Below, piece after piece: positions 24,588-48,809 of a stretch of DNA of 64,000 bases. Each line of letters begins with the position of its first letter. Positions within the stretch are counted from its first letter, which is position 1. The position numbers were made by a program, and so were the translations under genes. The stretch is from Nitrospira sp. (GTDB taxonomy: Bacteria; Nitrospirota; Nitrospiria; Nitrospirales; Nitrospiraceae): assembly GCA_019636875.1 (NCBI GenBank), contig JAHBWR010000006.1, positions 1-64,000 on the forward strand. Direction: 5' to 3'. Below the pieces are notes generated by a model. The model saw nothing but the letters and a program-made list of their open reading frames with translations, did no database searches and had not been told where the DNA came from.

Positions 24588-25619
24588 TTATCCTAGAAAC
24601 TGTTCCAAAATTTCTTGAGGTTTGAAGATCCCTCGCTCTGTGATGATGCCCGTAATGAGTTCAGCGGGAGTCACGTCGAAAGCGGGATTGTAGACTGACA
24701 CGCCTGTTGGTGCAACGGGATGGCTGCCGTGGATGGTCGTCACCTCGATGGGATTGCGTTGTTCGATCGGAATCGCGTCTCCCGATTTTGTGTTGAGGTC
24801 GATGGTGGAGTATGGAGCTGCAACGTAAAAGGGAATGTTGTGGGCCTTTGCGAGGACTGCTACTGAATAGGTTCCAATCTTATTCGCGACATCGCCATTT
24901 GCGGCGATGCGATCGGCTCCGACAACGCAGAGATGAATCTTCCCCTGTCGCATGAGCGAACCGGCCATGTTGTCTGTAATCAGTGTGACGGGAATCTGAT
25001 CTTGCATCAGCTCCCATACGGTGAGGCGAGCACCTTGAAGCACAGGGCGAGTTTCATCGGCAATCACATTGATTTTCTTGCCTTGCTCCCATGCCGCGCG
25101 AATGACTCCGAGTGCGGTGCCATAGCCGGCCGTCGCAAGTGAACCGGCATTGCAATGGGTCAACACGGTGTCTCCGTCGCGGATCAATTCTGCACCATGC
25201 CGCCCCATGGTTCTACAGAGTGCAATGTCTTCTTCAAGGATCGCTTGAGATTCTGAAAGTAGAGCACGCTTGATCGCTAAAACGGGTTCTCCCCTCAGCG
25301 ACTCGAGTTTCTGTTTCATCCGTTCAATGGCCCAGAAGAGGTTCACGGCAGTCGGCCTGGTGTTTGCCAGTTCATCACAGATTTTCAAGGCTGCCCGTGA
25401 AAAAGTCGGATAGTCCGTTGAGCTGATGCTCTGTGCGCCCAATGCGACTCCCATCGCCGCGGTGACTCCGATCGCTGGGGCTCCACGAACCTTCAGCGTG
25501 CGGATGGCATCAGCAACGGTGTGATAGTCAGGGCAATCGAGAAACTCGACCGCTCCTGGCAGTTTGCTTTGATCGAGGAGGCGGACCGCACCCTGTTTCC
25601 ATTCAACAGTGGGAACCAT
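24588..25619 (-). CDS. mtnA: S-methyl-5-thioribose-1-phosphate isomerase
   Basis: A 343-residue enzyme of the methionine salvage pathway that converts methylthioribose-1-phosphate to the ribulose form. Catalytic residues are visible: Cys156 in [13 protein letters not shown] and Asp236 in [12 protein letters not shown]. The family motifs [12 protein letters not shown] and [13 protein letters not shown] are intact, and the length is normal. eIF2B-like proteins share the fold but lack this Cys/Asp pair. It lies 40 nt beyond the last polysaccharide gene on the same strand, so it may be the tail of that operon. No other salvage gene (mtnK, mtnB, mtnP) is in the window. Confidence 0.95.
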
Positions 25620-25659: not shown

Positions 25660-26826
25660 CTACCTGCGGCGACCGCTGATCTCCAGTACGGTGAGCATGG
25701 CGGCGACTAAGCCGGCCTGAATGAGGAGAAGAATCGCTTCCGTCGTACCGGCATGGCGGAGTGCCAGTGCGGAAAGTCCCAAGCAAATCGTAAAGAGAAG
25801 GATCATGGCGACACTCGACTGACGGGACCCAAGCGCGCGTTCGAGACGGTGGTGGAGATGGTCTTTCCCTACATAATCCAACCATTCCTTTAGGGACCGC
25901 ACCTTTCCCGTCAGGATGCGTTCGACCGTAATGTGGATCATGTCGTAGATGAGTACTCCAAAAATCAGCAAAGGATTGCTGAACGACACGATGGGGTCCG
26001 AATCAGCCCAATTGCCCCTCACGGCCAAACAGGCCAGCGTGAAACCGATAAAGGTCGATCCTCCATCTCCGAGAAAAATGACCGCAGGTTTCGTTCCTCG
26101 AAAATTATACGGCAGAAAGCCCAGGCCCGCGCCGATCATGGCGATGGCGAGCCACCCCAACGCCGGTTGTTTCGTTTCAAATGCGATGACACCCATGAAG
26201 CCGGCCAACAGAATCGCCAGACCTGCGGCTAATCCGTCCATCCCATCAAAGAAATTGAACGCATTCGTGATTCCGACGATCCAGAGAATGGTCAAGAGCA
26301 TATTGGCCATCTCTCCGAGCGGACCAGGCGGAAAAAGTGTGAGGACTTTGCCGGATGCCGTGACGATGCCGGCTGCCAGCAACTGTCCGAGAAGCTTCGC
26401 CCAGGCCGGTAGTTCGCAAATGTCGTCGAGGACACCGATGATCAACAGTAAAGAACCGGCGACGAGAACGGCGACCATCCAGTCCGGGACAATCGAGTTT
26501 AAGAGCAGAGAACCGATAAACCCGGCATACAGCGCGATCCCTCCAAGCCGTGGCGTGGGGACGACATGGATCTTACGGTCGGCTGGAATATCGACGAGAT
26601 CCCATCGATGTCCTATCCAGACCATTAACGGAGTTAAGGCTCCTGTTCCGAGAAATGCGAAGAGAAAGATGTACAGCCATCGCAACCCTTCGAGTTGAAA
26701 AAGTTCCCGAACCGGAGGAATGGCCAACGCGATTGCCCCGAGTGCCGCACCGCAGACCACCGGCGTAATCCAGCGCCAAGTCGTCGTTGAAAAGGGAATG
26801 GCCAGGTCTGTTTCAGCTGTCTTCAT
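25660..26826 (-). CDS. Undecaprenyl-phosphate HexNAc-1-phosphate transferase (WecA/MraY family)
   Basis: An integral membrane enzyme of about 388 residues with roughly ten transmembrane helices. It loads the first sugar phosphate onto polyprenyl phosphate. Signature motifs: [36 protein letters not shown] and the cytoplasmic HLHHRLER loop typical of the WecA/TagO branch rather than MraY (which uses UDP-MurNAc-pentapeptide). It therefore probably initiates synthesis of the polysaccharide made by this cluster. The ATG at 26826 overlaps the upstream aminotransferase stop (ATGA) and is preferred over a GTG two codons earlier. Confidence 0.92.
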
Positions 26827-27902
26827 GACCACTCCGCACGTAGCGCCAGGAGGATCTGTGCCACCTCTTCATCCGTTAGCGCCGGGTACAATGGAATGGA
26901 GAGTGCGGTTCGTTCGGCCTCCTCGGCGGCAGGAAAGCCTTCCATCTCCAAGTAGCGATGCAGTGAACGGAAGACCGGTTTGCGGCAGTGAAGCCCTTGA
27001 GTCTCAAAGCGCCCGATGAGGTCTTGAAGTTCATCAGGATGGTCGGCAAGATCCGGGAGGCGTACGACAAATCGATAATAGGTATGTGTATAGCCTGATG
27101 GGACCAGCGGTTGGATGGGGGTGGCGCCGCTCAGTGCTGATCGATACTCATCGGCTAGGGCACTCCGGCGTTCCAGGAACGACCCAAAACGGTTCAGCTG
27201 GGCCAAGCCGATTGCGGCATGGAGGTCCGTCATTTTCAGGTTGGTCGCCGAGGGATAGAGTGATGGCGTTTCGTCATATTCTCTGAGTCGGCGGGCTCGT
27301 TCCAGGAGGCTTTCATCACGTGAGAGCACCATGCCTCCTTCGCCGGCGCAGAGCGGCTTGGTGGCGTAAAAGGAACAGACCGTGATCACGCCGGCTGATC
27401 CCACTGATCTCCCCTGTCCTACTGCGCCCAACGTTTGCGCGCAGTCTTCAATGATCGGAACGCCTAATGCGTGGAGATCTGAGAGCGCGGCGGAAAGTCC
27501 GAAGAGATGCGGAACGATGATCGCCTTGGTCTTGGATGTGACAGCCTGGCGGGCGGCTGATGGATCGATGTTGAAGGTATCGAGGTCGATATCGACCACT
27601 CGCGGCATGGCACCGACGCGCTGGACTGCCAGCAGCGGGGCGGCGCACACGTAGCTTGGTAGGAGCACCTCATCCTGTGTGCCGATTCCCAATACTCGGA
27701 GGGCGACCTCCAACGCAACCGTTCCTGACGTGACTGCCACCCCACCGGGTAAGCCGAAATAGGCGGCCATGCCTCGCTCAAACTGGTCGACGATCCCTCC
27801 CTGTGCGAGCTGGCGAGACGTAAGCACGTCCGTGGCTGCTCGAATGTCGGCTGCTTCGATAGAGGGTCGTGAGTGTGGAATCATTCGCGCCGTGCCAATC
27901 AT
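26823..27902 (-). CDS. DegT/DnrJ/EryC1-family sugar aminotransferase
   Basis: A 359-residue PLP enzyme that installs an amino group on a nucleotide-activated keto sugar. Motifs: SRPSIEAADI at the N-terminus, GTVALEVALRVLGIG, the cofactor-stacking and aspartate region PIIEDCAQTLGA, and the lysine in FYATKPLCAGEGGMV (a Lys in the ATKP segment replaces the more common S-x-H-x-x-K arrangement). The C-terminal CRKPVF region fits. The product sugar cannot be read from sequence. It is coupled by 4-nt overlaps both to the upstream PIG-L gene and to the downstream transferase. With WbqC and PIG-L it suggests an amino sugar whose nitrogen is modified. Confidence 0.9.
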   Translation of the reverse strand: MIGTARMIPHSRPSIEAADIRAATDVLTSRQLAQGGIVDQFERGMAAYFGLPGGVAVTSGTVALEVALRVLGIGTQDEVLLPSYVCAAPLLAVQRVGAMPRVVDIDLDTFNIDPSAARQAVTSKTKAIIVPHLFGLSAALSDLHALGVPIIEDCAQTLGAVGQGRSVGSAGVITVCSFYATKPLCAGEGGMVLSRDESLLERARRLREYDETPSLYPSATNLKMTDLHAAIGLAQLNRFGSFLERRSALADEYRSALSGATPIQPLVPSGYTHTYYRFVVRLPDLADHPDELQDLIGRFETQGLHCRKPVFRSLHRYLEMEGFPAAEEAERTALSIPLYPALTDEEVAQILLALRAEWS

Positions 27903-28546
27903 ATTCCGATGTTGATGAACAAACGCAGCGGGAGAAACCCCTCGGCCGTCCGAACTCGACCTTGGATGCCTCGGAAATGAGCCGATGATTTCACCAGATC
28001 AGCGATGCTAAGCCCTTCGATATTGGTTTTCTTCACCTGTGACGCGTGAGCTTCCAGTGATTGAATCTTTCGATCCAATACTTGTTGGATATCGACGAAG
28101 ACCGTCGGCGCAAAGTTTTGGGTGGTCGGTCCTTCATAAAACAACACGTTCTTGGTGTATCGCGTGGCGGTAATCGTGCTCATGGCCAAATGTCGATGAT
28201 CTTGATGAGTGTCGTCGTGGTAGTGGACAAAGATGAAATGTGGTTCAATTTTTCTGACGATGCCCTCAACGGTTTGAATCAGATCACGTCCGAGCGGGAC
28301 TTCGGTGTCTTCATACCCACCCCAGAAGACCTCCTCGGCTTGGAGTAGCTTAGCCGAACGTTCCTGCTCCTGCTTGCGAAGCACCGTGTTCCCACCAGCT
28401 CCTCCCTGGGTCATCACCATGAGAAAAATGCGGTGGCCGTTATCCGCATACTTGATCAATGTCCCCCCGCATCCCACTTCGATGTCGTCCGGATGAGCCC
28501 CGAGCGCGAGGATGCGCATCGGTTCCTTGGTGTTGATGACCATCAT
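27899..28546 (-). CDS. PIG-L/LmbE-family N-deacetylase
   Basis: A 215-residue zinc enzyme. The metal-binding motif AHPDDIEVGCGG near the N-terminus and the second site HYHDDTHQDHRHLA (about 100-113) are intact. Family members remove acetyl groups from GlcNAc-linked substrates such as GlcNAc-PI, mycothiol or bacillithiol precursors, and sugars of antibiotics or glycans. Here, in a polysaccharide cluster, it probably de-N-acetylates a lipid- or nucleotide-linked HexNAc. Start at 28546 is supported by AGGAGG 7 nt upstream. It overlaps the DegT gene by 4 nt. Confidence 0.9.
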   Translation of the reverse strand: MMVINTKEPMRILALGAHPDDIEVGCGGTLIKYADNGHRIFLMVMTQGGAGGNTVLRKQEQERSAKLLQAEEVFWGGYEDTEVPLGRDLIQTVEGIVRKIEPHFIFVHYHDDTHQDHRHLAMSTITATRYTKNVLFYEGPTTQNFAPTVFVDIQQVLDRKIQSLEAHASQVKKTNIEGLSIADLVKSSAHFRGIQGRVRTAEGFLPLRLFINIGI

Positions 28547-28557
28547 GTGTCTTCCTC

Positions 28558-29265
28558 CTAGGCAGTGGTCACACCATGTCTGACAAGTCTGGCATGGCGC
28601 AGAGTCTCCAGCGCCTCAGGTCCTTGCAGCAACAAGAGATCGAGCGCGGAAAGGTTTGCTTCGAACGGTTCATAGATCTGTCGATAGGATGGATGCTGAA
28701 ACGTCTGTCTTTCGAGCCGTATGCCGGAGGCCTCAAAGCGTGGTTTGTCCATGTAGCGCTCTGCCCCTGCCCCCGCGAGATACTCCGCGGCGCCGACTGC
28801 TCGGCAGAGGTCGATCAACCGGTCCGTCGGTTCCTCGCGAGCGTTAAATTCCGATGCGCAACGAACCGGGGTGAGAATCCCGTAGGCCTTCAGCAACCAC
28901 TGCACCGTCACCTTATTGAGGTCGCTGAGTTTTGTCCATGGCCTGGTGTAGAGCTCACGCAGCTGCGGAAGATAATGATCAAGATAGGGTGCACGAGCAT
29001 AGTGCATTTCCAATGCGCGGAGATGCTGAACCTTCCAGATGGCGGTGGGGTTAATCAACACATCGTCAATGCGTTGGCCGAACTGCTGCAGCACCGGGAC
29101 TGTCAGCCATTGCCAGCCTTGAGACGTTCGAATGCGATTGCGGTTTTGCCACTCATTCTTCTTGAACTGGACGGTATCAAGAATAAGAAAGAGGTCAGCT
29201 TGATCCACTTTGTCCAGATACCCCAGCCAGGGCATAAATTGCGGTTGGTGAATGGTCACACGCAT
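28558..29265 (-). CDS. WbqC-family protein
   Basis: A 235-residue cytosolic protein of the WbqC family (PF08889), recognised from MRVTIHQPQFMPWLGYLDK at the start, DTVQFKKNEWQNRNRI, and the IDDVLINP and WTKLSDLN segments that follow. WbqC genes sit in O-antigen and other glycan clusters. The biochemical activity is not firmly established, and a role in attaching an amino acid or acyl group to an amino sugar has been proposed from context. Here it precedes PIG-L and DegT, which supports that idea. The ATG has GAGGAG 5 nt upstream. It is separated from PIG-L by 11 nt. Confidence 0.88.
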   Translation of the reverse strand: MRVTIHQPQFMPWLGYLDKVDQADLFLILDTVQFKKNEWQNRNRIRTSQGWQWLTVPVLQQFGQRIDDVLINPTAIWKVQHLRALEMHYARAPYLDHYLPQLRELYTRPWTKLSDLNKVTVQWLLKAYGILTPVRCASEFNAREEPTDRLIDLCRAVGAAEYLAGAGAERYMDKPRFEASGIRLERQTFQHPSYRQIYEPFEANLSALDLLLLQGPEALETLRHARLVRHGVTTA

Positions 29266-29293: not shown

Positions 29294-30862
29294 TCACGTC
29301 TTGATCGTATTGCCAGAATCAGGGCCCGGTCGTTGAGCAGATTCCGTGTGTGCCTCAGGACGTGGAGCGACATAAATTGGATTGGTCAGCAGCTCGCCGC
29401 TTGGCCCCACCAACTCCAATCGATATGATTGCCATCCACTCCGGTTGGTCTCATGGTCGACGAAGTCGATTCGCACCGGCGTGGCACTCTCAAACTGCTT
29501 GATCACATGGCCTGAGCGGATGATCCGAAGTTTGGTCAGGTGGCGTGCTCTATCGCTGGTTGAGACACCGACGTGGATTCGGAGCTCTCCGCTTGCGGTG
29601 GCTTCCAGCGTGTCTCCCATTCCTGCTACGTGATTGGCAGTCGACACCGTAAACTCGTCAAGTTGAAGGAGCGTTGTCTGCTCGCCTCGTGCGACTGCGT
29701 AGGCGTGACCGGCACGGAGGGCCGCGAGAACACTCTCTGCCGTTCGTTCAGAAGCGTTGATTACGGTGTAGACTCGGTCTAGGTCCTTCCCGGCATCAGT
29801 TGTTCCATGAAATGCGACTTCTCCGATCAGGGTGGGAAAGTCTTTGTGGTCTGCCGTGAATCTCGATGCCACAAGTTGATCCCATATTCCACCAGGAGTC
29901 ACCGCTCGTCTAGCTTCTTGATACAAGCCGCCAAAACCAGTGTAGTGCTCCGTCAAGACTAAGGCTTCCGGATGGGGCTCGGTCTTCACCGTGACTGTCC
30001 CAAGTGGGCCAAACGCGTGTTGACTGAAATCTCGCGCCTCCGTCATGGACCAGAAGACCAGCGCACCCCGGTCAATTGCGTGGTCGATCAAGGCTTGATA
30101 CGGCTGATATCCCAGCCCACCGTCGTGAGAACTATAACGAGGCGTTTTGATCGGCCATGCATGGACCAGAAGCCCACTGCATATCAGTAATAACATGGCC
30201 GAAAGAACCCATCGGAAACGAGGAGTGGACGTGGTGTGTGTTGAAAATGTGTGACGTAGAGGGTTCAAGAGTCCGACAAGGGGAATGAGCAGGAGCAGTG
30301 GAAGTCCATTGGCCAGGCTCTGCCAGCTCCACACAAAAGAATCGGCGTTCCCTCGTGATGGGAGGCCTTCATAATCTTCGGCCTTCTCAAGACCGATGAC
30401 CAGGAGATTTCGCTGCGCATTGTGCATGGTGAGATTCCCCTGTAGGAGTGAACCGGTCCAGTAATAGTGGGGGGCGACCTCCACACCTGGAATAATGATG
30501 AGATTGGGGTGACGCTGTTGGACCGCGCGAACTTCATCGAGAAACTGCTGAACGCCGAATTCCATGACTGAAGGAAAATTGACTCGGTATGCCAAGAATC
30601 CGTCGAACGGATGAACACCATAATCATAGCGAAGCGTAAAGTTTTCAGAGAGAATGAGCACGTCCAATTGTTGCTGCTCAGCTCGTTTGGCGAGCGATTC
30701 AAGACTGAGCGTTCCGGTGCTCATTACGCTATGGACATGAACGGCGGCTCGAAGCGATACGGGAGATGTTCCTGTGGTTGCAGCGGAGACCGGTGCGACT
30801 GCGGTGAAGCCCATCACCGCCAGGCAGAGCATGCTTGTGATGAGTGCCATGGTTCTATGCAT
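29294..30862 (-). CDS. Membrane-embedded PHP-domain protein
   Basis: A 522-residue protein. An N-terminal signal or anchor helix (about 5-27) is followed by a PHP-type metal-binding domain: HxH motif at His42/His44 (AAVHVHSVMSTG), Glu73 (ILSEN), then Glu128 and His132 (GVEVAPH) and His147. Two transmembrane helices (about 185-200 and 217-236) interrupt the domain. The second half resumes with SSHDGGLGYQPYQALIDHA and FWSMTEARDFSQ, and a C-terminal beta-rich region (about 380-500) follows. PHP proteins are phosphoesterases, polymerase-linked nucleases or CpsB-type tyrosine phosphatases. The hydrophobic layout would place the catalytic half outside the cytosol. Function in this cluster is unknown. 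It overlaps the upstream GT4 gene by 8 nt if the first ATG is used. Confidence 0.8.
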   Translation of the reverse strand: MHRTMALITSMLCLAVMGFTAVAPVSAATTGTSPVSLRAAVHVHSVMSTGTLSLESLAKRAEQQQLDVLILSENFTLRYDYGVHPFDGFLAYRVNFPSVMEFGVQQFLDEVRAVQQRHPNLIIIPGVEVAPHYYWTGSLLQGNLTMHNAQRNLLVIGLEKAEDYEGLPSRGNADSFVWSWQSLANGLPLLLLIPLVGLLNPLRHTFSTHTTSTPRFRWVLSAMLLLICSGLLVHAWPIKTPRYSSHDGGLGYQPYQALIDHAIDRGALVFWSMTEARDFSQHAFGPLGTVTVKTEPHPEALVLTEHYTGFGGLYQEARRAVTPGGIWDQLVASRFTADHKDFPTLIGEVAFHGTTDAGKDLDRVYTVINASERTAESVLAALRAGHAYAVARGEQTTLLQLDEFTVSTANHVAGMGDTLEATASGELRIHVGVSTSDRARHLTKLRIIRSGHVIKQFESATPVRIDFVDHETNRSGWQSYRLELVGPSGELLTNPIYVAPRPEAHTESAQRPGPDSGNTIKT

Positions 30863-32042
30863 ATCCGGTTAGTGCTTTCCTGTACGTGGACTCAATGGAT
30901 TGGACCATCGCCGGAATTCCATAGCTCGCATCAATGGAATCCCTTGCCTGCGTGCCCAATTCGACGGCCCAAGCCGCATCCTCTAGGACTTTCCGTATGG
31001 CATCGGCCAGTGCCGAACTGTCTCCGGCCGGAATCAGAATCCCGTTCTTCCCATCTTCAATGAGGGCTGGAATGCCACCGACCCGGCTGGCGATAACGGG
31101 AAGCCCAGCTGCCATAGCCTCTACCAGGGCTCGTCCCATCCCTTCGTTGAGCGACGGCAGGACAAAACAATCAAAGCCAGCCAGGCACACCTCGATATCC
31201 TCCCGATGTCTAAGCAGGTGTATGACTTGGCTGATTCCCGCTTGTTCGGCCCGGCGCAGGAGTGCGTCATGCTGATCTCCTGTTCCGATAATAACCAGGT
31301 GGAGGTTCTGTTGCTCGTTGTTCAGGTGAGCCAAGGCATCCACCAAAAACCGATGCCCCTTAATCTCGGTGAGCCACCCGACGGAGCCAATGATTCGTGC
31401 GGTCGATGGGCAGCCGAACCACTCAGGGATGATCTTTCCATTTGCCCGGGCCTTTCGAAATCGATCACGATCGATGCCGCTTGGAACGACGGCGAAGCGA
31501 TCGGCCTTCCCGACACCGCGCTCAAGGTGTTCCAGTGTCTCGGCGGGCGTGAGCCCGATGAACCAGTCCGTGATCCCTGCTAATGCGCGTTCGATATGCA
31601 GGAACACCCATGAGGGCAACGCGCCGAAATGTCCATAAAACACGTGCCCATGTGGAGTATGGATCACTACCGGGACTCCGGTGATCCATGCAGCCAGCCT
31701 CCCCAATACTCCGGCTTTGGATGTGTGGGTATGGACGATGTGAGGGCGCGCCTGTCTCAATAGTCGAACAAGATGCCAGAGTGCTCTCAGATCGGAGATT
31801 GGATCGATATGACGAACCAGCGATCTCACGATGTAGTACGGGATCGACTCTTTCTCTAACAGCCGGAGGTTGTGGATGGTGGCGGGGTATCCTCCTTGTG
31901 TGTCACAGCTACTCGCCTCACCCGTGATCACTACCGGCTCAAAGTACGCACGATCATGTCCGAGCACCGTGAGCATGGTATTCTGGGCGGATCCTCCACG
32001 ATCAAGCCGAGTAATAATATGGACGACTTTCTGAATTGCCAT
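30855..32042 (-). CDS. GT4-family glycosyltransferase
   Basis: A 395-residue GT-B enzyme (GT4 family, retaining). The N-terminal domain begins VVHIITRLDRGGSAQNTML with the glycine-rich GGS acceptor loop, and the nucleotide-binding C-terminal domain has PSLNEGMGRALVEAMAAGLPVIAS (an E-x7-E motif). It probably adds one sugar to the lipid-linked repeat unit on the cytoplasmic face. The family does not reveal the sugar. It follows the next upstream glycosyltransferase by 5 nt and overlaps the PHP gene by 8 nt. Confidence 0.93.
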   Translation of the reverse strand: MAIQKVVHIITRLDRGGSAQNTMLTVLGHDRAYFEPVVITGEASSCDTQGGYPATIHNLRLLEKESIPYYIVRSLVRHIDPISDLRALWHLVRLLRQARPHIVHTHTSKAGVLGRLAAWITGVPVVIHTPHGHVFYGHFGALPSWVFLHIERALAGITDWFIGLTPAETLEHLERGVGKADRFAVVPSGIDRDRFRKARANGKIIPEWFGCPSTARIIGSVGWLTEIKGHRFLVDALAHLNNEQQNLHLVIIGTGDQHDALLRRAEQAGISQVIHLLRHREDIEVCLAGFDCFVLPSLNEGMGRALVEAMAAGLPVIASRVGGIPALIEDGKNGILIPAGDSSALADAIRKVLEDAAWAVELGTQARDSIDASYGIPAMVQSIESTYRKALTGYA

Positions 32043-32047
32043 GGTTC

Positions 32048-33271
32048 TTAGGCTGCGAGCTGAGCCGGCATTGCGCTGTCCAGTATCCTGGCGAGCTCGC
32101 TACAATGTTGCGTCCAGTTGTAGCGTCGCTCAACGAGTAGGCGCCCTTTGTTCGCCAGTCGGGCTACTTCCCCCGCGTTCTTCAACCGTGCTAACACCCG
32201 TTCGAGAGCTCGAGCGAGTGATCGTCCATCAACCCCTTCGGCAACCAGGATCGGGTCGACCTGGTTTAAGATTTCAGGAATCGCTCCAACCGGTGTGCCA
32301 AGCACAGGTGTCCCGCAGGCGAGGGCTTCAACCATCACGAGCCCGAAACCTTCCAGTTGGAGACTTGGCATCAAAACCAGATCGGATGCTTGATAGTAGT
32401 GGCTGAGTTGTGATTCAGGTATGAAGCCTACGAGGCGTACGACGTCCTGCAATTTCTTGTGTTGGATCTCTTCTTGAAGTCGCGCCCGTAACGGCCCCTC
32501 TCCACCGATGACGAGCGTCAGTCGCGGTTGCGTGGCGACCAGTAGTTCAATGGCGCCGAGTAAGTTGTCCAACCCCATCCTTGGGACAAGGTTGCGAACG
32601 GTGAAGAGGATTGTCTTGTCGGTCGGGAGCTTGAGTGTTGCTCGTGCAGTCTGGCGCTGCAGTGATGGTTTGAAGAGCTCCGCGTCGACCGCTCCAGGCA
32701 CCAGCCCGATCCGGGCGGCTGAAATTCCATGTGCCGCCATCACTCGTTGACGCATGAATTGACTCAGGACCACCACGCGGTGACATCGTGACATGACCAC
32801 GCCTTCAACCGACTGCCTGGCTCGAAGATTGGTGTGTCGGCGTAGGCTTGCCAAGGTCGATTGTGCCGGGGCCTGTCTTGTTTCGTATTCCTCGTGGGCA
32901 AGTGAGTGGCAAACATAGATCCACCGAGAGGCGGCCTGTCGGCGCGAGAGAATCGGCCCAAGTCCTGCCAGTGATTGATGGATGACAACGGCATCGATGG
33001 GTCTCGTCACGCTAAGCTGGTCGAATCGTTCGACCGATCGGCGGATGGATGACCACAGGAAGGCGGCTTCATGTTTGCGGCTCACGGGATACCGCCATTC
33101 TTGAATCCCATGCATCTCAATCACACCTTCGAATCTTGGCTCGGGCGCCCGAGTCAGGATCCTCACATGATGACCCAATGCGGCTAATCCGATCGCCTGG
33201 TTCCGAAGGACCCGTTCCGCCCCGCCGATCACTCGTGCCGAGGAGACTTCAGCCAGTACAAGGATATTCAT
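32048..33271 (-). CDS. GT4-family glycosyltransferase
   Basis: A 407-residue GT-B glycosyltransferase. N-terminal: VLAEVSSARVIGGAERVLRNQA, the GGAE glycine motif. C-terminal: PSLQLEGFGLVMVEALACGTPVLGT, the E-x7-E motif with the conserved GTPV. It adds a sugar to the growing polysaccharide unit; donor unknown. Its ATG overlaps the stop of the amidotransferase gene (ATGA). Confidence 0.93.
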   Translation of the reverse strand: MNILVLAEVSSARVIGGAERVLRNQAIGLAALGHHVRILTRAPEPRFEGVIEMHGIQEWRYPVSRKHEAAFLWSSIRRSVERFDQLSVTRPIDAVVIHQSLAGLGPILSRRQAASRWIYVCHSLAHEEYETRQAPAQSTLASLRRHTNLRARQSVEGVVMSRCHRVVVLSQFMRQRVMAAHGISAARIGLVPGAVDAELFKPSLQRQTARATLKLPTDKTILFTVRNLVPRMGLDNLLGAIELLVATQPRLTLVIGGEGPLRARLQEEIQHKKLQDVVRLVGFIPESQLSHYYQASDLVLMPSLQLEGFGLVMVEALACGTPVLGTPVGAIPEILNQVDPILVAEGVDGRSLARALERVLARLKNAGEVARLANKGRLLVERRYNWTQHCSELARILDSAMPAQLAA

Positions 33272-35199
33272 GCGACAAGCCCTACGGTCGTTTGATCAGT
33301 GGAACGAGTGCTCAACCCTCGATGCCACAATTCCAATACGATGAGTGCGTACAGCTGGTCGGAAAAGTTTCGGCGCCCACTGTCGTGCTCGTTGAGCAAC
33401 CACTGAACATACGCCGGTTTGACGTAACCGCGTTGTTTCATCCGATCACTCAACAGGAGATCATGAGCCATCTCACGAAGGTCTTCTCGGAGCCATCGAG
33501 CCATGGGGACCATAAATCCTTGTTTCGGTGCCTTAAGAATCTGATCCGGCAAGAGACTGCCCAGCATTCGTCGCATAAACCCCTTTAACTGCCATCCGGA
33601 AAAACGAAGTTTAGAATTGACAGCAAGGGCCGCATCAATGAGGAGATGATCGCAGAATGGCACGCGCAGTTCGAGAGAGTGCACCATACTCATACGATCG
33701 GCCATGCGTAGGAGGTCGTCTGGCAAATAACTCTGGAGGTCGACGCCCATGGCACGATTTGAAGGATCTTCAGATGGCCACTGATTGAAGAGCATGTCCG
33801 CCGGGCCCAATGGTCGATCATTGACGAACGTGGCCTCTAGTGCGTCTCCCCACAGAGTGCCCTCCCATTCATGAGGAATAAAGGTCGTCCAACGCCGGTA
33901 CTGCTCATGAAGCGGGAGGTGCCCATCTCGAAGAAATCGTTTCAGACGCCCGCTATAGTCCCGACTCGTTCCGTGTTCGTTGAGGCATGCACTCCAATGT
34001 GCCAGTTGTCGGCGTAGCGCGCTGGGCACATACTGATAGTGGGCCGCCCCACGAAGGCCGAGATAGCGAGGGTAGCCACCGAAGAGTTCGTCACCACCGA
34101 TTCCGGAAAGGGCCACCGTGACAGATTGCCGTGCAACCTGTGATACCAAGTACGTCGGAAGCGCGGATAGGTCAGCGAAGGGCTCGCCCATTCCTGCAGT
34201 CACTTGTTCAATCAGAGATACGACATCCGGTTGTAAAATGGTCTCTGAGTGAATGGTCTTGAAGTGAGTCGCCAAAAGTCGGGCGGCCGCCAGTTCGTTG
34301 AACGATTGATCGGAAGGATGCTCATACCCGATCGTGAAGGTGCGAATAGGATCAGGCTGCACCTTAGCCATGATCGCTAAGAGAGATGCGGAGTCCAGGC
34401 CACCGGAAAGAAATAACCCGAGGGGCACATCACTGACAAGATGAGCGCGGACAGCGTCCTCCAGCGCGGGAAGCACCTCGTGAGCCGCTTGCTTGTAGTT
34501 CCAGGTGGTCGTGTCGGCAACTTGGTTTTCTAATCGGTAGTACTGGATGAACTCAATACGACCACCTGACACTTTCATCGCCTGGCCTGGCCGCAGTTGA
34601 TGCACTCCTCCGATGATCGTGTCAGGTCCCGGCACGTAGAGATGCGTGAGATATTCGGCAATGCCTTCCACGCGAAGACGCCAATCCGGCACGGCTTCGA
34701 GCAATGAGGGAATCTCCGAAGAGAAGACAACCGATGCACTCCGGCCAGGCATATGTTGTCGAATTGTGTAATACAGTGGCTTGATGCCGAGGCGATCACG
34801 GACGAGCCAGGCAATCCGCCGTTCACGATCCCACAGGGCGACGGCGAACATGCCTCGCAACCGCTGGAATGCATCGATTCCCTCGTCTTCATATAAATGG
34901 ACGAGGACTTCCGTATCACAATGGGTGGAGAGACGGTGCCCTTTGCGCACCAGTGCGTTTCGCAACTCACGATAGTTGTAGATCTCACCGTTCATCACCG
35001 CCCACACCGTTCCGGTCTCATTGCCGATCGGTTGGTGACCGCCATCCGGATCAATGACCCGGAGCCTCCGAGCGCCAAGCGTGATCTCGGGTTCACGATA
35101 GATGCCCTCGTCGTCCGGTCCACGATGAATCAATCGACGGAGCATCGGCTCGATCACCCCACCCTCATGTTCACCTATGACTCCGCAGATTCCGCACAT
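33268..35199 (-). CDS. Asparagine-synthase-like glutamine amidotransferase
   Basis: A 643-residue two-domain protein. The N-terminal class II glutaminase begins MCGICGVIGE, with Cys2 as the nucleophile after Met removal, and continues with LIHRGPDDEG, VMNGEIYNYRELR and the RDRLGIKPLYY junction. The C-terminal synthase domain has the PPi-loop LFLSGGLDSASLLAIM. True asparagine synthesis is possible, but copies inside polysaccharide clusters usually amidate a sugar acid or an attached amino acid. Translation starts at the ATG 35199 because the glutaminase needs Cys at position 2. AAGGGGA lies about 9 nt upstream, and the longer open frame upstream encodes no known domain. It overlaps the next GT gene by 4 nt. 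Confidence 0.92.
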   Translation of the reverse strand: MCGICGVIGEHEGGVIEPMLRRLIHRGPDDEGIYREPEITLGARRLRVIDPDGGHQPIGNETGTVWAVMNGEIYNYRELRNALVRKGHRLSTHCDTEVLVHLYEDEGIDAFQRLRGMFAVALWDRERRIAWLVRDRLGIKPLYYTIRQHMPGRSASVVFSSEIPSLLEAVPDWRLRVEGIAEYLTHLYVPGPDTIIGGVHQLRPGQAMKVSGGRIEFIQYYRLENQVADTTTWNYKQAAHEVLPALEDAVRAHLVSDVPLGLFLSGGLDSASLLAIMAKVQPDPIRTFTIGYEHPSDQSFNELAAARLLATHFKTIHSETILQPDVVSLIEQVTAGMGEPFADLSALPTYLVSQVARQSVTVALSGIGGDELFGGYPRYLGLRGAAHYQYVPSALRRQLAHWSACLNEHGTSRDYSGRLKRFLRDGHLPLHEQYRRWTTFIPHEWEGTLWGDALEATFVNDRPLGPADMLFNQWPSEDPSNRAMGVDLQSYLPDDLLRMADRMSMVHSLELRVPFCDHLLIDAALAVNSKLRFSGWQLKGFMRRMLGSLLPDQILKAPKQGFMVPMARWLREDLREMAHDLLLSDRMKQRGYVKPAYVQWLLNEHDSGRRNFSDQLYALIVLELWHRGLSTRSTDQTTVGLVA

Positions 35200-35203
35200 G
35201 GAG

Positions 35204-35455
35204 CTATTTCCCCTTTTCAAGCACGAGCCGGTCACGGCGTTCCAACTCTTGTCGCTCACGTTCGTGTTGCGGTGACACGGAGTGTGGAGGGACGTCAACC
35301 GGTTCATAGCGCGTATGTTTCGCTGTGCCGACCGATTCAAGCAAGGTACGTATGCCCAGCGCTGCCAGTGCCCCCGCCAGGCAAAGGAACAGTATCGCAC
35401 CCCATCTGCGGGCGGTCCGTTTCCACGATCGTTGATGAGTGAGATAGGAGCTCAT
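35204..35455 (-). CDS. Small single-pass membrane protein, function unknown
   Basis: An 83-residue protein coded between the methyltransferase and the amidotransferase. Its ATG overlaps the methyltransferase stop by 4 nt (ATGA) and its stop is 4 nt before the next start, which argues strongly for a real gene. A basic N-terminus (about 1-18) is followed by a transmembrane helix (about 19-37, WGAILFLCLAGALAALGI) and a charged C-terminal half rich in Arg, Glu and His that may be periplasmic. I do not recognise the family. It could anchor or regulate the amidotransferase or an export component. Confidence 0.8.
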   Translation of the reverse strand: MSSYLTHQRSWKRTARRWGAILFLCLAGALAALGIRTLLESVGTAKHTRYEPVDVPPHSVSPQHERERQELERRDRLVLEKGK

Positions 35456-36339
35456 CGGGATCCCCTTCGTTGCGCGATGATTTCAAACGAAGGCGCCCAT
35501 ACGAGATGACCGCTCGTCACGAAATAAAGAGTCTGAGAAAGTAGCCACAACACAGATCGGCTGAGAGTCCATTTCAATCGACTGAACCACGGATGTGCCG
35601 GTGAGAGAGGGCCTCGACTCGGTACCGAGTTGCGGACACTCAGTACCGTGAGCCCGGCGCCTTCCATCAAGACCGAAATTGCCCTGGGGCTGTAGAGGTA
35701 CCAATGAAATGCTTGGTCATATTGGGACCCAATCCAGCGTGCAGGAGTTCTCATGGACACATGAAAGGAGCCGTTGGTCGCTCGTACGATGACAAGTCCA
35801 CCAGGCGCCAGGAGAGTCCTAGTGTGCTGCAACATGATCGCCGGATCAGCAACAGTCTCGAGTACATTGATCAATGTCACGACGTCAAAATGCTGGGCCC
35901 ATTCACCACCCTCCATCGCGTGTGGCGAAAGAATCGGTACACCTTTGTGCGTCGCGCGCAGTGCCGCCTGTTTGGACAACTCGATCCCTGAGCAGTGCCA
36001 CCCCGCCTCGCGACAGAGCATCAGGAACTCTCCATCTCCGCACCCAATATCTAACAAGGTACCTGGAGGAGAGCGATAGGAAGAAAGATGACGTAAAACA
36101 CTTTGGAAAACCGGTTGCCGGTCATCTGAAGCCTCGACTTCTCCATAATCACGGTCATAGTCTTCTCGGAAATACTCTTCCAAGGTTTCGTGAGTTGGAC
36201 GAGGATCGCGAAAGACAAGATCGCAAGCAGGACAGCGCACGTATCGTCTCGTCGGGGTATGAAACGCTTCAGCCAGTGGCTTACCGGCTCCACAAGGGCA
36301 CCTGATGCCGACGGCGTGCTGATCGATTACGGTAGTCAT
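35452..36339 (-). CDS. Class I SAM-dependent methyltransferase with zinc ribbon
   Basis: A 295-residue enzyme. An N-terminal zinc ribbon has Cys14, Cys16, Cys36 and Cys39 (CPCG, then RCPACDLVF). The methyltransferase motif I LLDIGCGDGEFLMLC follows, then FDVVTLINVLETVADP (motif with acidic and hydrophobic residues) and LLAPGGLVIVRATNG. The zinc ribbon plus class I fold occurs in sugar C- and O-methyltransferases of glycan clusters. The C-terminal 60 residues are hydrophobic (VLWLLSQTLYFV), a possible membrane-associated segment. It is coupled by 4-nt overlaps to both neighbours. Confidence 0.9.
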   Translation of the reverse strand: MTTVIDQHAVGIRCPCGAGKPLAEAFHTPTRRYVRCPACDLVFRDPRPTHETLEEYFREDYDRDYGEVEASDDRQPVFQSVLRHLSSYRSPPGTLLDIGCGDGEFLMLCREAGWHCSGIELSKQAALRATHKGVPILSPHAMEGGEWAQHFDVVTLINVLETVADPAIMLQHTRTLLAPGGLVIVRATNGSFHVSMRTPARWIGSQYDQAFHWYLYSPRAISVLMEGAGLTVLSVRNSVPSRGPLSPAHPWFSRLKWTLSRSVLWLLSQTLYFVTSGHLVWAPSFEIIAQRRGSR

Positions 36340-37511
36340 GCCGCTTCCCGTTGTGTTGCTGGAGGAGCTCCGACGGATGCCTCGCGTAAACCGGGCATCG
36401 CTTCTTCGAACACTCTGACAGTATCGTGAATCATTTTGTCGACCGTAAAAGCAGTGGCCATCTTGTGTCGCCCGGCTTTGCCCATACGCGCTGCTCGTAT
36501 GGGGTCGCGAAGCAAACTCCGAATGGCACGCTCTAATGCGTGGGGATTCCGAGGCGGGACGAGTAGTCCATTGACACCGTCTTGAATAATTTCAGGTACG
36601 CCGTTGACGCTGGAAGCGATCACTGGACGGGCCATGGCCATGGCTTCCAGGATAGCGAACGGTAGTCCCTCCGAAATCGATGGCAGGACGACCACATCTG
36701 CCGCTGCATACCAATCATCGACATTCTTCTGAGCTCCAATAAATAGACAGGCTTCCGTAATTCCAAGTGTTCTGGCTAATACCTGAAGTGTCTCTTTCGA
36801 TTCACCTTCTCCGACGAATAAGCAGGTAAGCGACGGCCACTCTGCCAACAGCCCCGGCAGTGCTTCGATGAGGAAGCGATGGCCTTTTTGATCCGTCAGC
36901 CTCGCCACGACAAGGAGTGTGGGACCGTCGCCGACACACCACTCTTTCCTGATCTTATGAGGATCGGTATTTCGAGAGAACCATCGTTGATCGAGGCCGT
37001 TTCGTATCGTTGTTGTCTTAGCCTCGATACCGGGGCAATCCGCGAGGACATCACGCTTGATCGCGTCCGATACACAAATAAGTCGGTTGGTCAGCGGTAG
37101 TACGACTCGCAGGATTGTGAGGTAGAGGTAGCGCCTGATGCAGCTCACCTCATAATCTCTGATGGAATTGTGTATTGTTGCGACAACACACGGGACTCCA
37201 GCCAGCCATGCCGCGAGACATCCGTAGACATTGGCACGTGCTCCATGGGTTTGAAGGATCGTGACGGAATTCCGTTTCAGGAGATGTGCCAGCCGTATGA
37301 CCGCGAGCGGGTTGAAGAGCGGTGTCAGATGAACAATATGAGTCGGGACGTGCTGCGAGACCATTTTGTCCACAAATGGGCCTGGTTCAGGGCAAATGAG
37401 TATCGGGTGAAAACGGGATCGGTCGATGTGACCGAGGAGCAGCTCTAAGTAGCGTTCCCCTCCTCCATACCCAGCCGAACCGGCCAATTCGGCAAGAACA
37501 TAGGGCTTCAT
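36336..37511 (-). CDS. GT4-family glycosyltransferase
   Basis: A 391-residue GT-B transferase. N-terminal AGSAGYGGGERYLELLLG carries the glycine-rich loop. The C-terminal domain has PSISEGLPFAILEAMAMARPVIAS with its E-x7-E motif, and ends in a Glu/Ala-rich tail. The sugar is unknown. The start ATG overlaps the upstream methyltransferase stop by 4 nt. Confidence 0.93.
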   Translation of the reverse strand: MKPYVLAELAGSAGYGGGERYLELLLGHIDRSRFHPILICPEPGPFVDKMVSQHVPTHIVHLTPLFNPLAVIRLAHLLKRNSVTILQTHGARANVYGCLAAWLAGVPCVVATIHNSIRDYEVSCIRRYLYLTILRVVLPLTNRLICVSDAIKRDVLADCPGIEAKTTTIRNGLDQRWFSRNTDPHKIRKEWCVGDGPTLLVVARLTDQKGHRFLIEALPGLLAEWPSLTCLFVGEGESKETLQVLARTLGITEACLFIGAQKNVDDWYAAADVVVLPSISEGLPFAILEAMAMARPVIASSVNGVPEIIQDGVNGLLVPPRNPHALERAIRSLLRDPIRAARMGKAGRHKMATAFTVDKMIHDTVRVFEEAMPGLREASVGAPPATQREAA

Positions 37512-46670: not shown

Positions 46671-48809
46671 TCACCGATACTCGTAGCGATAGAGTCCGTA
46701 CTCAGGCGTCACTTCTGACTTGACGTTGGTGAGCACGACACCAAGAACATTAGCCTGAGCATGATCGAGTAGGAACTTGGCACGCTTCAGTGCATTGCGA
46801 CCGATCCGACCCACCTGGTACACCAAGATGGTCCCGTCGACACGAGAGCTAAAGGCGACCGCGTCCGTGACGGGAAGGATGGGGGGGGTATCGATCAGCA
46901 CAATATCGTAGTCTTCCTGCATTTCTGCGATGAGCGCTTTGATCTTCGTAATATTCAGAAACTCGTTGGGATTTCCCGATTCTGAACCACTCGTGATCAC
47001 ATGGAGATTATCCAGACCGGGAGTGCTGAGGAACCGATCGACACCGACTGTTCCAAGCATGAGGTCCGTTGCAGACCGCACGTATGACCGCCATGACGTC
47101 GTCCCCAACAAGGCATCCACCAACCCCGGTTCTCGCTCGATCCCCAATCGTTGGTGGACAATCGGTTTCCGAAGATCGGCATCGACCAGCAACACCTTTA
47201 TGCCCTCTTGAGCCATGGTGATAGCCAAATTGATCACGCAGGTGCTTTTGCCCTCCCCAAGCGCGGCGCTGGTAAAGATGATCGACTTCACTCTACGATC
47301 CAGACTGGCGAACTGAATATTGGTTCTGAGCGAGCGAAGGCTTTCCGATAAGACGGATTTCGGATCAAGCAGACAAATCAATTTCGAGAGGCTTTCCGCT
47401 GCCGACGGTGGTGTGTCCGGCGGCAATGTCTCCAGCGCCATCTCCTTGAGTACCTTATGGTCGAGCTGTGGAATAATTCCTAAGACGGGTACGTTGAGAA
47501 ACTCCTCGACTCCTTCGATCGTACCAATCGATGTATCGAAGGACTCTCGACCGAAGGCGAGCACGATGCCGAGAAAACACCCCATCAACCCTCCGATCAT
47601 CAAATTCATGGTGATGTTGGAGCCGTTGATAGGCGTTGAGGGCGTGATGGCCGGAGCGATGATGGAGACCTCTTCAATCCGTTCAGCCCCCTTTATCAGC
47701 AACTCCTGATGCTTCGCCTTCAGCGTTGCGAGGAGGTCGGTGTTCACCTTTACTTCCCGCTCCAAGCGGCTCATTTGAATAGCTGCTCGAGGGTATCCCA
47801 AATAGCGTTGTCGATAATGTCGTCGTTGCTCTTGAAGCGCCTCTTCACGATCCATTAATGTCGTGACCTTGGACTTCAGCTCTTGGATCATTTCAGATTT
47901 AACGTTGTCGACCTTCTTCTGTTGCTCGACGACCTGAGGGTGATCCGGTGTGTAATTGATGAGCAAAGTATCGCGCTCCTGGATCAGGTCCAATAACCGT
48001 TGGTTCAGGATCGTGAGAAGTGCGTTCTGTTCTTCGGTAAAAATCCGGCCGGTCTGATTGCCGATCACGGCGTCTGAGTGTTTCAGTACTTCGATCTGAC
48101 GTTCGCCCTCCGTGCGTTTTCGCAGCACGTCGTTGTACTGTTCTTCCAACTTGGTGAAGGTATCCAGCGCAGCTCGGGCTTCATCGGCAAGAAAGACCCG
48201 GCCTTCATTCTCTTTGAAAGTCCGAAGAGCGTCCTCGGAATCGTTCAGTTGCTGTTCTAGACTTGCCAATTGTTCTTCCACAAACCGTTTGGATTCGGTG
48301 ACCAGACGGTTACGGGCAGCGATGTTTTCCACGCGGTACGCTGAGGCTGCCGAGTTCGCCATCCGTTCGGCGAGTTCAGGCTCATCGGAGGTAGCGGAAA
48401 TACGAATTATGTTCGTATCTCCTTCTCGCTGGGCGGTGATCTCCTGACCAAGGTTATAAATACTGTTCAGGTAGGTCGCGGACTTTTTGTCATCCGGCGC
48501 CGCATTTTCATCCACCCGTCCAAGGTCCACCGCTACACGTTCCATGACGGGAAAACTACGAATAAATTCAATCTGGGTCCCGAGATCATTCATGCTCGAG
48601 TAGGATAGAGATTCCAGCAGTTGCTGGGCTATCGTAGTGCTCCGCTCAAACTTGACTCGTGCTGAGGCTTCATAGAGAGGGTCGGGACGAAGAAATTCTG
48701 AAAAGATCACGGTAAAGACCACCACGAGGATGGTCGAGAGAAGGATGAGATACTTACGTTTTTTAAGAATCAACCAGTAGTCGATGACATTGAGTTCGTA
48801 CTGTGCCAT
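46671..48809 (-). CDS. Fused chain-length determinant and BY-kinase (Wzc-like)
   Basis: A 712-residue polysaccharide co-polymerase. Cytoplasmic N-terminus, TM1 (about 18-38), large periplasmic Wzz domain with long coiled coils (about 40-390), TM2 (about 402-420), then a cytoplasmic tyrosine kinase. The kinase shows Walker A SAALGEGKS (514-522), Walker A' LVDADLRKP (541-549) and Walker B IVLIDTPPIL (636-645). The C-terminal cluster has Tyr704, Tyr707, Tyr709 and Tyr711. BY-kinases autophosphorylate that tail to cycle the export complex. It stands between the Wza-type gene and the ligase. No cognate low-molecular-weight phosphatase gene is visible in the cluster. Confidence 0.95.
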   Translation of the reverse strand: MAQYELNVIDYWLILKKRKYLILLSTILVVVFTVIFSEFLRPDPLYEASARVKFERSTTIAQQLLESLSYSSMNDLGTQIEFIRSFPVMERVAVDLGRVDENAAPDDKKSATYLNSIYNLGQEITAQREGDTNIIRISATSDEPELAERMANSAASAYRVENIAARNRLVTESKRFVEEQLASLEQQLNDSEDALRTFKENEGRVFLADEARAALDTFTKLEEQYNDVLRKRTEGERQIEVLKHSDAVIGNQTGRIFTEEQNALLTILNQRLLDLIQERDTLLINYTPDHPQVVEQQKKVDNVKSEMIQELKSKVTTLMDREEALQEQRRHYRQRYLGYPRAAIQMSRLEREVKVNTDLLATLKAKHQELLIKGAERIEEVSIIAPAITPSTPINGSNITMNLMIGGLMGCFLGIVLAFGRESFDTSIGTIEGVEEFLNVPVLGIIPQLDHKVLKEMALETLPPDTPPSAAESLSKLICLLDPKSVLSESLRSLRTNIQFASLDRRVKSIIFTSAALGEGKSTCVINLAITMAQEGIKVLLVDADLRKPIVHQRLGIEREPGLVDALLGTTSWRSYVRSATDLMLGTVGVDRFLSTPGLDNLHVITSGSESGNPNEFLNITKIKALIAEMQEDYDIVLIDTPPILPVTDAVAFSSRVDGTILVYQVGRIGRNALKRAKFLLDHAQANVLGVVLTNVKSEVTPEYGLYRYEYR

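Follow-up and report, generated by a model that had tools for sequence, protein, structure and literature searches.

What does a PHP-family protein do when two membrane helices split it and its gene lies inside a polysaccharide cluster? The case comes from Nitrospira sp. (assembly GCA_019636875.1), at positions 1-64,000 of contig JAHBWR010000006.1. We call this whole stretch of DNA, 64,000 nucleotides long, the window. The original prediction was an extracytoplasmic phosphoesterase whose target would be a lipid-linked or exported phosphate. Our answer, a tentative one, is a variant PHP hydrolase of the CehA/McbA branch. It would be anchored in the inner membrane, face the periplasm, and use a reduced metal site on an exported or lipid-linked glycan. 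From the sequence comparisons described below, we give this reading a probability of about 0.42. The gene and the parts of its product are the following:

29294-30862, minus strand: gene of the variant PHP protein, 522 amino acids, ATG start (open reading frame and profile evidence)
30782-30862, minus strand: signal-peptide-like N-terminus ending in VSA, residues 1 to about 27 (judged by composition only)
30365-30757, minus strand: first part of the PHP barrel, residues 36-166, with H42, H44 and E128
30266-30316, minus strand: membrane helix 1, residues 183-199 (hydropathy; 40/40 homologues)
30209-30265, minus strand: hairpin loop, residues 200-218, predicted cytosolic and K/R-rich across the family
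30158-30208, minus strand: membrane helix 2, residues 219-235 (hydropathy)
29678-30127, minus strand: second part of the PHP barrel, residues 246-395, with W271, M273, E275, E348, A350 and H352
29363-29665, minus strand: C-terminal domain typical of CehA/McbA, residues about 400-500, ending in NPIYV

The gene is real and under purifying selection. It shares its first 8 nt with the end of the GT4 gene upstream, and a gap of 28 nt follows before the next gene. Homologues are present in 48 of the 396 Nitrospirota genomes covered by our genome search. The closest one (L031, 90% identity) belongs to a Nitrospira MAG and was the single close relative in one scan of GTDB contigs. Compared with L031, the gene as a whole has a dN/dS of about 0.25; when the two PHP parts alone are taken, the value is about 0.09. 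Searches of viral contigs and of plasmids found no relatives of the protein. Two assemblies carry a homologue that is broken across frames or stops: G020 (on contig C262) and G303 (on contig C1). This reflects either decay or sequencing error.

We compared the protein with two family profiles. The Pfam PHP model (PF02811) gives it 23.1 bits, with a cut-off of 26.4, and covers residues 41-130 only. The NCBIfam CehA/McbA model (NF038032) gives 64.9 bits, with the best stretch at residues 347-498. This value is under the curated cut-off of 80 bits and counts against the CehA/McbA assignment; no protein among 59 relatives reached that cut-off. The original prediction had proposed a profile-HMM search for homologues as a check. 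Both models match 27/27 homologues at E <= 0.1, weakly. Likewise, profiles of the family match solved PHP structures (2anu with E 9.9e-6 and 3e38 with E 0.003). An AlphaFold2 model made from two sequences, the window protein and L031, had a pLDDT of 33 and a pTM of 0.26, values too low for it to bear on the fold or on whether the retained residues cluster.

The comparison with eight CehA-like proteins from sister families (L081-L088), which have no hairpin, concerns the split itself. The full family profile aligned with them through the C-terminal domain only. Once the hairpin columns were removed from the profile, the alignment ran end to end over 312 columns. In global mode, which forces an end-to-end alignment, the probability was 99.2%; local mode, the fairer of the two for this reason, gave 98.0%. 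This match points to a single PHP domain that carries a large insertion and precedes a C-terminal domain of the CehA/McbA type. The window protein is best read, by profile comparison, as a distant CehA/McbA-type PHP protein. It has the PHP domain and then the same C-terminal domain with its NPIYV end, both in one chain, as CehA/McbA proteins do. It differs from that family in its score, in the membrane hairpin that splits the PHP domain, and in the substitution of five of the nine metal ligands.

The hairpin interrupts the barrel after PHP strand 4, ahead of the helix that precedes strand 5. We counted residue conservation, signal, helices and loop composition over 40 homologues, and predicted the topology from composition (hydropathy and the positive-inside rule). 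A signal-like hydrophobic N-terminus and both hydrophobic helices are present in 40/40. The signal or anchor helix noticed earlier at the start of the protein is thus a trait of the family. So are the two membrane helices, which had been placed at about 185-200 and 217-236 and lie at 183-199 and 219-235. On average, the hairpin loop contains 30% K/R and 7% D/E, against 9.6% K/R and 11% D/E in the two PHP halves. In the loop of the window protein itself, there are just 3 K/R and D/E are absent; hence the topology argument draws mainly on the family.

By the positive-inside rule, a K/R-rich loop would be cytosolic and both barrel halves periplasmic. Since signal-like N-termini, hairpin and K/R-rich loop recur in all 40 homologues, the variant PHP protein is very probably exported, with both PHP halves facing the periplasm. 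The extracytoplasmic location of the original prediction is backed by the same signals. The topology check that it proposed also places both halves outside rather than in the cytosol, as far as composition predicts. It had started from the rule that PHP proteins are usually cytosolic, and this rule is not reliable in this branch. Sb-PDE of Sphingobium TCM1 is a secreted PHP phosphodiesterase (PMC5460133), and the sister-family relatives of the window protein look exported too. The N-termini of the latter (L081-L088), read by eye, show RR (twin-arginine) and lipobox-like motifs. These CehA-type PHP proteins are probably exported lipoproteins.

The nine canonical PHP ligands are H, H, D/H, H, E, H, C/H, D/N and H (PMC3666897). 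At these positions, the window protein presents H42, H44, T49, N74, E128, N152, M273, A350 and H352. Four of the nine are kept (H42, H44, E128 and H352), and T49, N74, N152, M273 and A350 are substitutions. The same letter occurs in 40 of the 40 homologues at H42 and E128, in 38 at H44, T49, N74, N152 and H352, in 37 at A350, and in 36 at M273. The PHP metal site that had been predicted survives in part. Its HxH motif at 42/44 and its E128 are real and conserved, and H352 is kept beside them; however, five of the nine ligand positions are substituted. The other residue named for the site, H132, is histidine in just 25/40 homologues and otherwise Y, F, L or A. We rejected it as a metal ligand for this variability.

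The equivalence of M273, A350 and H352 comes from the hairpin-free HMM alignment, from 3e38, and from two distant homologues, L062 (8927-10417) and L063 (6640-8205), which present WAHP and GELDY there. For N152, the standard of comparison was the published list of nine ligands together with L062/L063. The sister-family set cannot test this residue because it has itself no histidine at the sixth ligand position.

L062 and L063 belong to other Nitrospirota classes and retain the hairpin. They keep histidine at ligand positions 4, 6 and 7 and aspartate at position 8, and they are without positions 2 and 9. More precisely, the motifs TDH, the strand-4 histidine, WAHP and GELDY are kept, and the HxH and the last histidine are lost. 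On a midpoint-rooted tree, with a long-branch warning for L061-L063, the two form a separate, well-supported group. They share with the other homologues only ligand positions 1 and 5, so each lineage lost a different subset, and the ligands kept in the two groups are largely complementary. Three more residues are specific to the family: W271 and E348 (each 40/40) and E275 (glutamate in 39/40, with one aspartate). These positions occur in L062/L063 too. We rejected E348 and E275 as a late compensation for the lost ligands; L062/L063 have an acid at both positions beside the canonical aspartate and histidine.

With five of nine ligands substituted, catalysis itself is not assured. The PHP domain of E. 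coli DNA polymerase III alpha is a conserved domain in which five of nine ligands are also replaced, and it binds no metal (PMC3666897). Unlike the window protein, it is part of a cytosolic polymerase, keeps a different ligand set, and has no hairpin. Because metal-free variant PHP domains are known, the loss of ligands bears more on the status as an enzyme than on the fold.

The neighbours of the gene were used as a further guide to its role. They are listed in the order of transcription around the PHP gene:

33268-35400, minus strand: AsnB-type amidotransferase, conserved upstream partner
32048-33271, minus strand: second GT4-like glycosyltransferase, conserved upstream partner (read from the translation)
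30855-32042, minus strand: GT4 glycosyltransferase, conserved upstream partner
28558-29265, minus strand: WbqC-family gene, conserved downstream partner
27899-28546, minus strand: PIG-L/LmbE-type de-N-acetylase, conserved partner
26823-27902, minus strand: DegT-family aminotransferase, conserved partner
25660-26832, minus strand: WecA-like polyprenyl-phosphate sugar-1-phosphate transferase (Glycos_transf_4), conserved partner

The order AsnB-GT4-GT4-PHP-WbqC-PIG-L-DegT-WecA-like is conserved, with small losses, in 20 neighbourhoods that span the family. Some of the losses probably come from the ORF filter: the WbqC gene of G053 was found by a separate search and had been dropped in the neighbourhood listing. 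The neighbours are named by their best BLASTP hits to window proteins, and paralogues may be mislabelled. Two genomes of other classes (G119 and G334) retain a reduced operon, PHP-WbqC-PIG-L-WecA-like. In the neighbourhood of G397, the WbqC side of the operon was not seen.

Among 99 relatives, the PHP gene and a close WbqC gene (E < 1e-70) occur in the identical 30 genomes, which are related and hence not independent events. The set with a close PIG-L gene differs from these only for G065 and G075, where fragments of the gene sit close to, or at, the end of a contig. The conserved operon favours a role of the PHP protein on an exported glycan. A literature search, with subscription journals largely outside its coverage, found no paper on the PHP protein or the PHP-WbqC pairing and no biochemical data for any member of the family. 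The search for the function of the WbqC neighbour found no assignment.

The cluster also encodes a BY-kinase (46671-48809) with a tyrosine-rich tail, YGLYRYEYR. CpsB phosphatases are themselves PHP proteins, and the CpsB/CapC/Wzb tyrosine phosphatases, whose genes lie in polysaccharide clusters, are cytosolic and act on BY-kinase tails. The window protein could be the CpsB-like phosphatase of this kinase if its PHP part were cytosolic. We find this scarcely credible and rejected it on the predicted topology, which puts both PHP halves outside. A periplasmic PHP protein could not act on the tail; the same point in the original prediction stands on that topology. The CpsB/CapC profile (PF19567) matches neither the window protein nor any other in the assembly, which is about 84% complete. 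A single low-molecular-weight phosphatase homologue is encoded elsewhere in the genome (it could be of the arsenate reductase type), and the constant partners of the PHP gene are WbqC and PIG-L.

The phosphoesterase of the original prediction would work in the periplasm and attack either the undecaprenyl-(pyro)phosphate link or a phosphate that the exported glycan carries. The hairpin would seat the barrel at the membrane surface, and the constant partners in the operon include a WecA-like lipid-phosphate transferase. Sb-PDE offers a precedent: it has a signal peptide and a PHP domain and acts outside the cytosol, as is predicted for the window protein. Nevertheless, Sb-PDE is described as a soluble homodimer, with all nine ligands in place and with bound zinc (PMC5460133), whereas the family of the window protein keeps four of the nine and has a membrane hairpin. 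Moreover, the closest curated family includes carbamate-ester hydrolases, as its named members are (PMC8292978), and the operon points to no phosphorylated substrate. We judge the phosphoesterase improbable.

A non-catalytic role is the main rival to the hydrolase, and a serious one. A metal-free PHP barrel would then be a periplasmic glycan-binding or scaffold subunit, which anchors or coordinates the proteins of the module or the exported chain. The substitutions speak for it, and they count against the hydrolase because they are as many as in the metal-free domain of E. coli Pol III. Pol III PHP domains lose ligands yet stay structurally conserved (PMC3666897). Likewise, L062/L063 and the rest of the family have each lost ligands of their own. 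However, the HxH, E128 and H352 survive in 38-40 of the 40 homologues, and H42, H44 and E128 could make a 2-His-1-carboxylate set. E275 and E348 are kept throughout. This is more than expected of a binding-only barrel, and we hold the pseudo-enzyme possible, if on balance unlikely.

We prefer the hydrolase of the CehA/McbA branch. The hairpin inserted in the barrel would keep the protein near the membrane. Its action would come at a late stage: it would hydrolyse a substituent or a linkage of the glycan that the AsnB-GT4-GT4-WbqC-PIG-L-DegT-WecA module builds, when this glycan is undecaprenyl-linked or has just been exported. Its metal site would be reduced and probably mononuclear, made of H42, H44, E128 and H352, with the family-specific acids E275 and E348 nearby. 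The comparisons show the fold family, the place of the hairpin, the ligand substitutions, their conservation across the family and the operon linkage, and they strongly favour the predicted topology; metal binding, catalysis, the bond cleaved and the substrate are inferences only. With about half of the usual ligands lost and an interruption by two helices, the product probably belongs among unusual sugar-processing proteins of the envelope and not among the classical PHP phosphatases.

A bolder form of the idea seems distinctly doubtful to us. The barrel would be a membrane-seated enzyme or receptor for an undecaprenyl-linked glycan. Its trinuclear site would have been rebuilt into a pocket that holds one metal or is lined with acids (H42/H44/E128/H352 with E275/E348). 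The sugar of WbqC, PIG-L and DegT would have in this protein a step of its own, with no counterpart in known Wzx/Wzy systems.

If the preferred reading is true, a PHP barrel tolerates a membrane hairpin in its middle and, although its metal centre is partly dismantled, is active on the periplasmic side of the inner membrane. In that case, PHP-WbqC-PIG-L-DegT-WecA-like would also be a compact module, inherited together, by which Nitrospira and its relatives carry out envelope polysaccharide chemistry.

Two observations concern the borders of this series of genes. Its last member in most neighbourhoods from Nitrospiraceae is MtnA, a methylthioribose-1-phosphate isomerase (24588-25619 in the window) with no obvious link to polysaccharide synthesis. 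On the other side, the AsnB-type protein (33268-35400) scores 494 bits against TIGR03108, the XrtA/PEP-CTERM amidotransferase model with a cut-off of 817, and a nearby GT4 (36336-37511) matches TIGR03088. These two matches suggest a kinship with exosortase-linked polysaccharide loci.
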